Virus record (IMG/VR): IMGVR_UViG_3300034198_022187
Location: 1-24,314 of that record
Reading direction: 5' to 3' (one strand)
DNA length: 24,314 nucleotides
Source of the DNA: a virus
Below are positions 2,740 to 24,314 of this stretch, piece by piece. Made by a program: the position numbers and the translations under genes. Below the pieces are notes generated by a model. The model saw nothing but the letters and a program-made list of their open reading frames with translations. It ran no database searches and had not been told where the DNA came from. Numbering within the stretch: the first letter of the stretch is position 1; every line of letters begins with the position of its first letter.

Positions 2740-3303
2740 CTATATAGTCCAATTAGACCTTATAACATAAAGATTTTTATTTAATATTTCTTTCTTAACT
2801 TCAAAATCTGTTAATCCAATAACAGTTTCTAAATGTCCGTTTTTGTCAGAACAAACAGCCCAACATTTATTTTTAGATTTTATTATAGAGCAAAGCTTTT
2901 TTATTATTTTTGACTTTGCGTTTTTATGACTATTGCATAGTTTATTTTCTATTTCTATTTGAACTTTTTCTGGATCAAATAAATTTCCTATACCAAGCCA
3001 AAACCTATAGCGTGTCCACACCCTTAATATTTCAACGCCTTTAATATTTTCTATTTCAGAAACAATTTTAGCAGTTATGTCAAAATTAGTATGACCAACC
3101 CAAAGTTTATAGAGTCCGCTAGAAATACCATGTTCTGCAATAGGTATTAGTCCATAAGGTCCAGATATTAACCTTACATGCTTTGTTGTTTCGTCTTCTT
3201 CTTCAAAGCTATCTTTTTGTTCTTGGTATTGAGAATCGTCAACCTCTAATTTTTTATTAGGTTTTAATGGATCTTCCCATTTTAACCATTGGATTTTTCG
3301 CAT
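2740..3303 (-). CDS. Hypothetical phage protein
   Basis: 187 residues. The first ~40 are charged (Glu/Asp/Lys-rich) and probably disordered. The core at ~45-120 is aromatic and hydrophobic, with SGPYGLIPIAEHG, LYKLWVGHTNFDIT and VWTRYRFWLGIGNLFD in order. The C-terminal third contains a Lys-rich helix and NKCWAVCSDKNGHLETVIG. The core resembles an unnamed protein I recall from other large phages, but I know no function for it. The gene starts inside the end of thyX (22-bp overlap) with only a weak GGAAA upstream, so translation is probably coupled to thyX. Confidence 0.68.
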   Translation of the reverse strand: MRKIQWLKWEDPLKPNKKLEVDDSQYQEQKDSFEEEDETTKHVRLISGPYGLIPIAEHGISSGLYKLWVGHTNFDITAKIVSEIENIKGVEILRVWTRYRFWLGIGNLFDPEKVQIEIENKLCNSHKNAKSKIIKKLCSIIKSKNKCWAVCSDKNGHLETVIGLTDFEVKKEILNKNLYVIRSNWTI

Positions 3304-4106
3304 TTTCCATTTTCTTCTTTAAAAAATTTTCTATATTGTTTCCAGCCTGTAAAATTACCGTAAGATTTATCGCTGGAAAAACTAGGAGTAGCGCAATGCT
3401 CAAAAGGACTCCAATGACCAGATTCTTTTAATTGATCATGCAATGCATAATCTTTTTCGTAATCTATTACACCTTCGAATGTTAAATAGCTTACCCTAGC
3501 ACATCTAGCCACTCCAATCTTTAAAAGATTTTCTTCTTCTGGAACATTAGATATGTGTTTATCTGCAAAAGGTATATGCCAAGAACCAATGTCTATTTTT
3601 TTAGGAATAGACTCTAAAAGTTTGCTTTTCATTAAGCTGGCTAATTGAAAAATTTCAGGTTGGGCATTTTCATTTATTCTTAATTTAAAAAAATTATCAT
3701 AATCAGTAGCTGTAACAATAACGGTAACGCTAAACCAAGGTTCTAAAAGTCTATTTATTATCTGCTTGTGAACATTTAAAGACTGAAGCTCTTTTGCACA
3801 AAAAATCATTTTATCTCTAGCTTGCAACCATATAGTTTCTGCAACAGGAATATCAGACGGTGAAATCTCAGAGAATGCTTGCATACCAGATTGATTTTTG
3901 CCCCAATGAACAGGCATTACAGGGTCTTGTTCTATTTTTTCTATGAATTTTTTTGTAGGTATTGCTCTACTACTAGCAGCATTTCTAGAAAGCATTCTGT
4001 GTGTATTAAATTCAGCAAGAATAAATCTAGGAAATGTACATACAAAACTAGTTATTCTTTTATCTGATGGACTTATAGAATCTGCAACTATTTCAACTGA
4101 TATCAT
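3282..4106 (-). CDS. thyX: FAD-dependent thymidylate synthase ThyX
   Basis: 274 residues. It would convert dUMP to dTMP using methylenetetrahydrofolate with FAD/NADPH, feeding phage DNA synthesis. The ThyX signature appears as THRMLSRNAASSRAIP (residues 35-50), a variant of RHRxxSxNExSxR with Thr for the first Arg and Ala for the Glu. Further supporting segments are NVHKQIINRLLEPW (111-124), FFKLR near 140 and GHWSPFEHCATP (230-241). The C-terminus has WKQYRKFF. Length is slightly above the 220-250 residues usual for bacterial enzymes. The ATG at 4106 overlaps the upstream stop by four bases (ATGA). The Ala in place of the motif Glu appears to be a phage subtype feature, but I cannot verify activity. 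Confidence 0.93.
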   Translation of the reverse strand: MISVEIVADSISPSDKRITSFVCTFPRFILAEFNTHRMLSRNAASSRAIPTKKFIEKIEQDPVMPVHWGKNQSGMQAFSEISPSDIPVAETIWLQARDKMIFCAKELQSLNVHKQIINRLLEPWFSVTVIVTATDYDNFFKLRINENAQPEIFQLASLMKSKLLESIPKKIDIGSWHIPFADKHISNVPEEENLLKIGVARCARVSYLTFEGVIDYEKDYALHDQLKESGHWSPFEHCATPSFSSDKSYGNFTGWKQYRKFFKEENGKCEKSNG

Positions 4107-8582: not shown

Positions 8583-8757
8583 TTGATACTCTTGACTCTT
8601 GAGTTTCTATTTTAGATAAAGAATTTGAATTTCTTTTATCTTTACATTTTTGGCAAAACCTAATGTTTATTGGGTCACTAGACAAAAAAGTTTTATTGCA
8701 CCAGCCAAGACAATTTATAACTTTTGAAAAACCTTTATCAAGATGTTTTTTTTTCAT
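8575..8757 (-). CDS. Small zinc-finger protein
   Basis: 60 residues from the start MKKKHLDKGFSK; an ATG 42 bp upstream is possible but has no better ribosome site. One four-Cys finger: Cys16 and Cys20 in CLGWCNKTF, then Cys35 and Cys38 in FCQKCKDKR. The CxxxC...CxxC arrangement is typical of small phage zinc-finger proteins. The tail is Ser/Asn-rich. It overlaps the GNAT gene by 20 bp and the HNH gene by 8 bp. DNA or RNA binding is likely, but no target can be named. Confidence 0.7.
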   Translation of the reverse strand: MKKKHLDKGFSKVINCLGWCNKTFLSSDPINIRFCQKCKDKRNSNSLSKIETQESRVSND

Positions 8758-9220
8758 TTTTATTTCTTTCAAAACAAATAGCATCTTTGCCTTTTCCAAA
8801 ATGATTACTTATCAATTTAGAAGAAAATCTTTTTCTTTTAAAAAACATTATACTTGTATCATCATGCTCGTCAACATAGCAAATTATTTTTGAAAAATCT
8901 AAACTTTTTACAAAATCTAATAATACTGTTGCAAAACCATTTTTTCGCAAAAGAGGGTCTATGACAAGCTTATCTATGTATAAAGTATCTTTTTCTTTAA
9001 AAAATGCAATATAACCTATTATGGTATTACTTATTTGACATATATGTATAGATGTGTTTTTTTTTCTTACATATTCAATAAAGTCTTCTTCTTTCCATCC
9101 ATATCCAGAGTGTACTATCCCAAAATCAACATCTTCAACAGTATTTGAATAGTATTCTATTCGCAACAAGTCTTTTATATTGCGCTTAAGTGCAATCTTT
9201 GTTTCTGCTATATTTTTCAT
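8738..9220 (-). CDS. GNAT-family N-acetyltransferase
   Basis: 160 residues. The GNAT fold is supported by IGYIAFF, then LYIDKLVIDPLLRKNGFATV (residues ~80-99) with the acetyl-CoA binding turn RKNGFA (92-97). It ends with a motif-B type segment, DTSIMFFKRKRFSSK. The substrate is unknown; RimI-like protein acetylation and small-molecule acetylation are both possible. It lies just downstream of the structured non-coding region. No clear ribosome site precedes the ATG at 9220, but a promoter-like pair (TTGGGG, 17 bases, TATAAC) is found at ~9244-9272 on the minus strand. That could give a transcript with a very short leader. Confidence 0.82.
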   Translation of the reverse strand: MKNIAETKIALKRNIKDLLRIEYYSNTVEDVDFGIVHSGYGWKEEDFIEYVRKKNTSIHICQISNTIIGYIAFFKEKDTLYIDKLVIDPLLRKNGFATVLLDFVKSLDFSKIICYVDEHDDTSIMFFKRKRFSSKLISNHFGKGKDAICFERNKNEKKTS

Positions 9221-9243
9221 ATTGCACCAAGCTTGCTTTGGTT

Positions 9244-9272
9244 ATATACACACCCAATAATTACCCCAAGTT
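9244..9272 (-). promoter_or_regulatory. Possible promoter upstream of the GNAT gene
   Basis: The minus strand reads TTGGGG, a 17-base spacer, then TATAAC, close to the bacterial -10 but poor in the second half of the -35. It would start transcription ~20 bp before the ATG at 9220. It may separate the acetyltransferase operon from the structured RNA region. Confidence 0.35.
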
Positions 9273-9313
9273 TTTTATTAAAAATGAATAGTTAAATAAT
9301 ATATTTTTGGCAA

Positions 9314-9600
9314 TAGCCACTTCTTTACCCTGATAGCATAGCATCAGAGTTTCTTTATGAGCCTTGGTTTGCTATGGACTATGACCAAACAAGACATTGA
9401 CTAAAGATTTTTTTGCTTCTATCAGGTCTAAGTGGAGAAGTGGTCACTCCGTTCTTAGAATTTATCTTTAATCAAACTTTTCGTGCCACCTGTTAAGAGT
9501 TTGGCTACTCTATGGCAGTCTTTGGGTCTATACCCTGGTGTTGTGGATGCTTCGGGGAAAGAACTGCGAAAGAACCGTTATTGAATTTGATAACGCAGTT
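9314..9600. ncRNA. Candidate structured non-coding RNA
   Basis: No credible coding frame lies between 9221 and 9598, yet 9421-9600 is ~42% G+C by hand count, well above the neighbouring genes. Nested inverted repeats fill it. Long-range pairs are CCTGATAG (9329-9336) with CTATCAGG (9419-9426), and CCACTTCT (9317-9324) with AGAAGTGG (9436-9443). Inside them CTTGGTTTG (9363-9371) pairs with CAAACAAG (9386-9393), one bulge. GGAG/CTCC (9434/9447) inside CTAAG/CTTAG (9428/9454) is an alternative fold. Next are AGAGT/ACTCT inside TGCCA/TGGCA (9484-9517), GGGT/ACCC (9524-9535), and GTTAT/ATAAC stacked on AACTGC/GCAGTT (9562-9600). The strand is unresolved. It matches no class I can name: not a tRNA, tmRNA, RNase P or obvious group I intron. 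Confidence 0.6.
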
Positions 9601-9880
9601 ACTTATCTCCACAATCTCGTACATAGCTTTCTAAATTTTCTTTACGCAAAAGAAATATATACTTAGAACAACTGTCCTTCAATCTAAAATCCTTTATTTT
9701 CTTTTTATTTCGTATTGGTCTTTTGTCGCAAAACAGAAATGCTTCTTTTAAAATCTCAATGGCTTCTTTATTTGACGAAGCACATAAAGCTAGACAACAA
9801 CTTCCTTCTTTATCTATACATGCTTTATATTTTGATTTTTTACTTTCTATACTAAGCCATATCTCATAAAGATATTTCAT
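9599..9880 (-). CDS. Small protein with YEIW motif
   Basis: 93 residues, starting MKYLYEIWLSIESKKSKYKA. A beta-like N-terminus is followed by DKEGSCCLALCASSNKEAIE, a helix, basic RPIRNKKKIKDFRLK and a C-terminal helix. Six Cys are scattered without clear CxxC pairs. The N-terminal 'YEIW...KK.K' pattern is shared with the small genes at 5897 and 21101. Its stop codon lies inside the last hairpin of the adjacent structured region. Function unknown. Confidence 0.62.
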   Translation of the reverse strand: MKYLYEIWLSIESKKSKYKACIDKEGSCCLALCASSNKEAIEILKEAFLFCDKRPIRNKKKIKDFRLKDSCSKYIFLLRKENLESYVRDCGDK

Positions 9881-14914: not shown

Positions 14915-14986
14915 GTTGCTTATAATAAATAAAAAAAACATAGACATCTATTTAAAAATACACTTTTTTATTAATTTGACTAACCA

Positions 14987-15130
14987 ATGAAAAAAATATC
15001 ATTTGTAATTTTAAACTACAAAAGACCTAAAAATTTAACTAATTATATCATACCAAGTTTATTACAAAATCAATTTAATGTTTAAACTTTTTCCAGATTT
15101 AAAAAATATATTTAAATTAAATTATTGATT
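14987..15130 (+). pseudogene. Glycosyltransferase remnant
   Basis: A plus-strand ATG at 14987 opens a 32-codon frame ending at 15085. Its product starts KKISFVILNYKRPKNL and continues NYIIPSLLQNQF. This is the typical N-terminal strand and first helix of a GT2-like glycosyltransferase, which then stops. One base out of frame, the following bases encode KLFPDLKNIFKLNY and a stop, which reads like a natural C-terminal tail. The two pieces together suggest a gene that lost its middle. It is too short to be functional. It sits exactly in the divergent gap between the minus- and plus-strand halves of the glycan island. Confidence 0.55.
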
Positions 15131-15135
15131 ATAAT
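15124..15135 (+). promoter_or_regulatory. Repeated promoter-like 12-mer, copy 1
   Basis: ATTGATTATAAT, containing a perfect TATAAT, lies 53 bp before the Dps-like start codon. The identical 12-mer recurs at 16035-16046 upstream of the DUF5672 gene, with a near copy at 16024-16035. No good -35 is seen. Repetition in two plus-strand gaps suggests a phage promoter element. Confidence 0.45.
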
Positions 15136-15188
15136 TTCTGTTGTATTTATGTTTTTTAAATGGTGTACTATTTAATAAGGAGAATTAT

Positions 15189-23932: not shown

Positions 23933-24314
23933 TTAGAATATGCTTAGTGCTTTACCATCAGATATAGGTATTGGTCGCCCTAAATTGTCTCTAATTTGAA
24001 ACATTGGGTCTAAACCTAATGCTTTGTATACTGTGGCATAAACATCTGAAATACTGCAAGGTTTGTCTTTAATGTCCATACCATCTGAGGTTGTAGATCC
24101 ATAAACCTGCCCACCTTGGATAGTACCACCCCCAAGAACCACAGACCAACATCTAGCCCAATGATCACGACCAGCATTCTGATTAATCTTAGGAGTACGA
24201 CCAAACTCGCCCATCCACATAACTACAGTATCTTTCCACATACCCATATCTACCAAGTCCTTGACCAAATATCCCATGCCCATATCAAGACGATTCCCAT
24301 TCCCACGCCTAATA
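23933..24314 (-). CDS. DUF1501 protein, C-terminal part
   Basis: The open frame runs in from beyond the right edge (in-frame codons precede the first Met at 24283), so this is the last 126 residues of a longer protein. Residues MGYLVKDLVDMGMWKDTVVM, then MGEFGRTPKINQNAGRDHW, VVLGGGTIQGGQVYG, SISDVYATVYKALGLD, and GRPIPISDGKALS follow the DUF1501 C-terminal half closely. DUF1501 proteins are alkaline-phosphatase/sulfatase-superfamily members, usually exported and abundant in Planctomycetes and related phyla, with unproven substrates. One counted line is 43% G+C, against ~15-30% in phage-like genes. It is either host DNA next to the element or a gene the phage has taken up. Confidence 0.9.
   Translation of the reverse strand, partial: IRRGNGNRLDMGMGYLVKDLVDMGMWKDTVVMWMGEFGRTPKINQNAGRDHWARCWSVVLGGGTIQGGQVYGSTTSDGMDIKDKPCSISDVYATVYKALGLDPMFQIRDNLGRPIPISDGKALSIF

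Follow-up and report, generated by a model that had tools for sequence, protein, structure and literature searches.

The window analyzed here is a 24,314 nucleotide stretch of virus DNA (IMG/VR record IMGVR_UViG_3300034198_022187, positions 1–24,314), and it contains a gap at bp 9221–9598 that is bounded on both sides by minus-strand ORFs. A first-pass annotation, made from the letters of the sequence, had described this gap as gene-free and raised in G+C, and so it is; most of bp 9300–9599 is 36–45% G+C, whereas its surroundings are about 20–33%. The predicted features of the locus are listed here in the order in which the minus strand would be transcribed, with each helix given as 5′ strand/3′ strand and with the number of pairs at which homologs show double changes (classes are defined below).

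9599–9880, minus strand: 93-aa ORF, immediately 5′ of the RNA, with a stop codon that overlaps H1
9316–9600, minus strand: structured RNA element, extending from H1 through the 3′ strand of PK2, recognized by its homologs in about 38 contigs, covariation and covariance model score
9594–9600/9562–9568, minus strand: H1, AACUGCG/CGCAGUU; double changes in 3 of 7 pairs
9567–9577, minus strand: H1 loop, conserved CGGUUCUUUCG; its CGG can pair with CCG at 9553–9555 (PK1)
9524–9535, minus strand: H2, hairpin GGGU/ACCC; double changes in 4 of 4 pairs
9484–9517, minus strand: H3; double changes in 6 of 10 pairs
9513–9517/9484–9488, minus strand: H3 outer part, UGCCA/UGGCA; UUCUG/CAGAG in class D
9507–9511/9496–9500, minus strand: H3 inner part, AGAGU/ACUCU; variant UUGGU/ACCAA
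9464–9475/9397–9408, minus strand: H6, UUGAUUAAAGAU/AUCUUUAGUCAA; double changes in 9 of 12 pairs
9428–9458, minus strand: H4, with loop UGACCACUU; double changes in 5 of 9 pairs
9454–9458/9428–9432, minus strand: H4 strands CUAAG/CUUAG, plus GGAG/CUCC at 9447–9450/9434–9437
9419–9426/9329–9336, minus strand: H5, CCUGAUAG/CUAUCAGG, pseudoknotted with H6; double changes in 4 of 8 pairs
9438–9443/9317–9322, minus strand: PK2, CCACUU/AAGUGG, joining the H4 loop to the RNA 3′ end
8738–9220, minus strand: GNAT acetyltransferase gene, which starts 95 nt past the RNA 3′ end

The single-sequence folding energy of the gap is unexceptional on both strands (z is −1.46 on the minus strand and −0.83 on the plus strand), so the inverted repeats are by themselves insufficient to identify a structured RNA, and the signal that rises above chance is the covariation among homologs. 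Relatives of the RNA are present in about 38 IMG/VR contigs and comprise 17 distinct sequences, which come from only two phage groups and fall into four classes: W (the window), B (in which a cupin gene follows), C (in which no gene follows on the RNA strand) and D (L118–L125), a distant version carried on phage contigs that reach 221 kb; within B and within C the sequences are closely related. A search with the 93-aa ORF gave 11 related contigs in which the DNA 3′ of the ORF aligns to the gap, the RNA-only pattern AGCCAAACN{3,9}AACAGGN{1,6}GCACGAA matched 28 contigs, a second RNA pattern added L040, and a profile of the 93-aa ORF matched 30 contigs, the same set. A profile of the GNAT neighbor matched 37 contigs, 35 of which carry the RNA (the other two end before the site). 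The RNA is present once per contig in each contig tested. Searches of phage isolates, of plasmids, and of 84,980 genomes of bacteria and archaea found no real match to it; BLAST against the phage and plasmid collections returned only short AT-rich chance pieces, and neither the four bacterial-genome hits of a pattern scan of genome contigs nor the 14 and 1 further candidates from two more scans fit the covariance model. The RNA is carried by a group of large phages from fresh water and by a marine-type group related to them, whose contigs are up to 221 kb long.

The helices were read from the homolog alignment, and pairing was then counted strand by strand. Compensatory double changes occur at 33 of the 57 helix positions, with every helix represented, and the two strands of a helix pair at a frequency of 0.90–1.00 when taken from the same sequence vs 0.50–0.76 when strands are mixed between sequences. 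Class D is detected at E ∼1e-10 by a covariance model from which its own sequences were left out. The predicted helices also recur in class D when the best helix per predicted region pair is compared with shuffles (combined Fisher p of 1.8e-5 and 1.6e-5), although these values are indicative rather than exact because the class D regions and anchors were chosen after the sequences had been seen. A structured RNA almost certainly exists at this locus. Rfam 15, which includes GOLLD, ROOL, HEARO, group I and II introns, tmRNA, RNase P, SRP and riboswitches, gave no match at the gathering threshold in the window or in the class B and D neighborhoods except to tRNAs elsewhere, and at E ≤ 10 it gave only sub-threshold hits to unrelated families that differ from class to class. 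The RNA thus represents a structured phage RNA family that is genuinely new and lies outside Rfam 15, as the first-pass annotation had surmised in placing here a structured noncoding RNA that it could assign to no class; neither an Rfam hit, nor an absence of covariation, nor a decayed coding gene, the outcomes it had named as speaking against such an RNA, was found.

The alignment shows a predicted fold made of H1, H2, H3, H4, and H6, to which are added H5 crossing H6 and the pairing of the 3′ end with the H4 loop. At the 5′ end, H1 is AACUGGG/CCCAGUU in L002 and AAUGG/CCAUU in class D, H2 appears across homologs as GGGU/ACCC, GGGG/CCCC, GAAC/GUUC, and UGGC/GCCA, and the AGCCAA loop of H3 is invariant in 17 of 17 sequences. 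The possible PK1 contact is 3 bp long in W and B, 4 in C, and 6 in D (UCCGGU/ACCGGA); it is weakly indicated, mainly by class D (p = 0.03). H6 encloses H4 and is crossed by H5; shuffles produced an equally good helix in 0–3 of 200 cases per sequence, and its variants include UUAAUUAAGAAU/AUUCUUAAUUAA, UUAGAAAGA/UCUUUCUAA, and AAUAGUAAAU/AUUUACUAUU. H4 has the variant UUGAG-GGAC/GUCC-CUCAA, and H5 is CCUAGAU/AUCUAGG in class D. The double changes in PK2 replace A-U by C-G, among others, giving CCCCUU/AAGGGG in class B and CCCCC/GGGGG in class D. Since H5 crosses H6 and the 3′ end pairs with the H4 loop, the 3′ half of this fold is a compact double pseudoknot in which the 3′ end is locked. Elements of this fold had already been seen in the first-pass annotation, whose long-range pairing of bp 9317–9336 with 9419–9443 corresponds exactly to H5 and PK2 and whose last hairpin, ending at the stop of the neighboring gene, is H1 (9562–9600). 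Its suggestion that the RNA switches between folds fares less well. The second AAGTGG copy on which it drew is indeed present in the window, as a second CCACUU at bp 9430–9435 that could compete for the RNA 3′ strand, but in the alignments of classes B, C, and D this copy lacks complementarity to the 3′ strand, which makes a conserved switch unlikely.

Gene order around the RNA is variable. The 93-aa ORF adjoins it in classes W, B, and C and is absent in class D, where the RNA is antisense to both neighboring genes; homologs of the GNAT gene lie beside the RNA in both phage clades. The 93-aa ORF has no match in Pfam or PHROG, and its AlphaFold model, which is of middling confidence (pLDDT 70), has no significant fold match in the PDB. 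L002 and L013 carry nearly the same RNA beside ORFs of only about 44% identity, and L118 and L122 have the first two thirds of the RNA in common and then diverge, with different downstream genes. Comparison of these loci indicates that gene modules on both flanks of the RNA are exchanged. Promoter and terminator scans around the RNA gave nothing that stands out, the promoter scans being at chance level. Three further observations concern these flanks. Between L118 and L122 (3560–3750) the divergence of the near-identical RNAs in their last third looks like a recombination seam located within the RNA or next to it. Classes B and C share, downstream of the RNA, a ∼92-aa ORF (MKNRIKESQ...DIASEEL) encoded by the other strand, and the window lacks this ORF (positions, as RNA offsets or locus coordinates, are L004 304–588, minus strand, and L070 5319–5597, minus strand). 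Upstream of the RNA, L070 has tandem similar glycosyltransferase-like ORFs (2185–2994 and 2960–3742) in a region rich in sugar-modifying genes.

Several explanations other than a structured RNA with a function of its own can be weighed against these results. The unremarkable folding energy is what a decayed gene or chance inverted repeats would give, but this explanation is contradicted by the covariation and by the hold-out test with class D; the longest open stretches over the element are 17–72 codons and lie in frames that differ between homologs, close relatives show one-base differences in length, no coding frame is conserved, and the explanation can for practical purposes be dismissed. 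It is very improbable that the element acts at the DNA level, as a recombination seam or as a replication element whose hairpins function in single-stranded DNA. The swapping of modules around it, upstream between L002 and L013 and downstream between L118 and L122, would fit such a role, but helices that nest and cross, together with loops that do not vary, are typical of RNA, and the covariance model distinguishes between the two strands, scoring 216 bits on the minus strand and 25 on the plus strand. Moreover, H6 in W, L030, and some class B members has interior G-U pairs, which would be G-T mismatches in DNA and are A-C on the opposite strand; the few A-C cells on the minus strand are located at helix ends. 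By these comparisons the RNA reads from the minus strand, a choice that the first-pass annotation had left open.

The main rival is that the RNA is a cis-regulatory leader, riboswitch-like or protein-sensing, in which PK2 hides the Shine–Dalgarno sequence of the downstream gene and translation begins once the 3′ strand is freed. In at least 15 class B contigs GAAGGGG lies 8 nt before the ATG of the cupin-like gene, and in L122 GGGGG lies 4 nt before a methyltransferase ATG; with the PK2 3′ strand placed in this way the pseudoknot would hide the ribosome binding site, and this spacing, which is exactly that of a translational leader, counts against an autonomous RNA. In classes B and D this strand resembles a Shine–Dalgarno sequence; in W and C, which have no gene start at that place, it reads AAGUGG. 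On the other hand, W, C, and seven of the eight class D contigs have no start codon directly downstream, yet compensatory changes keep the fold, and the gene downstream of the RNA differs in every class, being cupin-like in B, a methyltransferase gene in L122, and GNAT, 95 nt away, in W. We consider a leader unlikely as the general explanation and read the placement in class B and L122 as co-option. The 93-aa ORF might instead encode an RNA-binding partner, cotranscribed with the RNA as a two-part ribonucleoprotein system; the ORF is small and basic, the RNA begins at its stop codon, and all contigs found through the ORF family carry the RNA where they extend far enough. However, class D carries the RNA without this ORF, and the divergence of the ORFs beside the nearly identical RNAs of L002 and L013, together with the lack of a significant match for the middling-confidence structure, also speaks against a partnership, which seems improbable.

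An RNA that is autonomous and probably trans-acting, rather than the regulatory leader of one gene, is the reading that we prefer (probability about 0.6). It fits better than a leader because the fold is kept, with compensatory changes, where no gene follows on the RNA strand (class C and L118), because the RNA of class D has no 93-aa ORF beside it and runs opposite to the genes on either side, and because the genes that follow the RNA differ between classes. Such an RNA would act in trans, either as a folded molecule by itself or at the core of an RNA–protein particle. In classes W, B, and C it would probably arise by trimming from the tail of the transcript of the 93-aa ORF, and in class D it would probably have a promoter of its own; in class B and L122 its 3′ strand would additionally have been co-opted as the Shine–Dalgarno sequence of the gene that happens to follow. 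More tentatively, it could represent a new, compact class of autonomous phage RNA, a ribozyme or particle core based on the double pseudoknot, that this phage lineage needs during infection and that has no relation to RNAs described so far.

Parallels with described systems are partial. Riboswitches of the preQ1-II and SAM-II types sequester the Shine–Dalgarno sequence in a pseudoknot, and in class B and L122 the pseudoknot strand is likewise placed as a ribosome binding site; the RNA here is, however, much larger and is kept where no gene follows. Group I introns have crossing helices P3 and P7 in their core, which H6 and H5 resemble, with hairpin H7 lying like P8 between the 3′ strands, but a group I intron is rejected, as there is no P4–P6 between the crossing helices and the group I models of Rfam do not match even at E = 10. 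The HEARO/IsrB and IscB omega RNAs are similarly about 300 nt long and pseudoknotted, but they adjoin an RNA-guided nuclease gene, whereas the neighbors here are the 93-aa ORF, cupin, GNAT, or methyltransferase genes. Searches of 10 phage contigs for the TnpB zinc ribbon and of 10 possibly incomplete contigs for the reverse transcriptase domain RVT_1 (retron, group II intron, or DGR) found none while their controls matched, which lends no support to a relation with guide-RNA scaffolds, retrons, or group II introns; a search for RRXRR (IscB) matched neither the contigs nor its controls. GOLLD and ROOL are large, multi-pseudoknot phage noncoding RNAs that are present in single copy and have no known role (PMC12286853; PMC7567579). 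The RNA shares with them its orphan status in phages, single copy, and pseudoknots, but there is no similarity in sequence or model, and GOLLD and ROOL are far larger (GOLLD often over 800 nt vs ∼285 nt here), form cages, and usually lie near tRNAs; no tRNA gene is found in the window or, around the RNA, in the class B and D loci L070, L071, L072, L142, and L118. Phage ICP1 makes an abundant ∼800-nt noncoding transcript whose role is not known from a gap that lacks ORFs (PMC7567579), a comparable phage setting, although that transcript is longer and its expression is known, whereas the present case comes from sequence only.

The RNA can be placed beside GOLLD and ROOL as a further, smaller orphan phage family, with a fold that is well fixed by covariation, and almost all sampled members of one phage lineage carry it. 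Its short length brings cryo-EM, chemical probing, and in vitro work within reach, and the possible use of the class B 3′ strand as a ribosome binding site could be read out with a reporter. A 21-nt antisense match to the H1 hairpin lies in an unrelated gene of L070 (16935–16955, G003; E = 0.0013) and is probably due to chance.

The phage lineage is poorly represented among isolates, judging from its terminase, whose best isolate matches are ∼25% identical and belong to Bacillus phages and Microcystis phage MaeS. The C-terminal part of a DUF1501 protein is encoded at the end of the window (23933–24314, minus strand), and this gene is found in 10 of 14 related phage contigs; it is usual in Planctomycetes and other bacteria and odd for a phage. 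The window also has a second gene-poor gap of ∼190 bp (14948–15140), which lies between divergent genes and is likely a promoter region.
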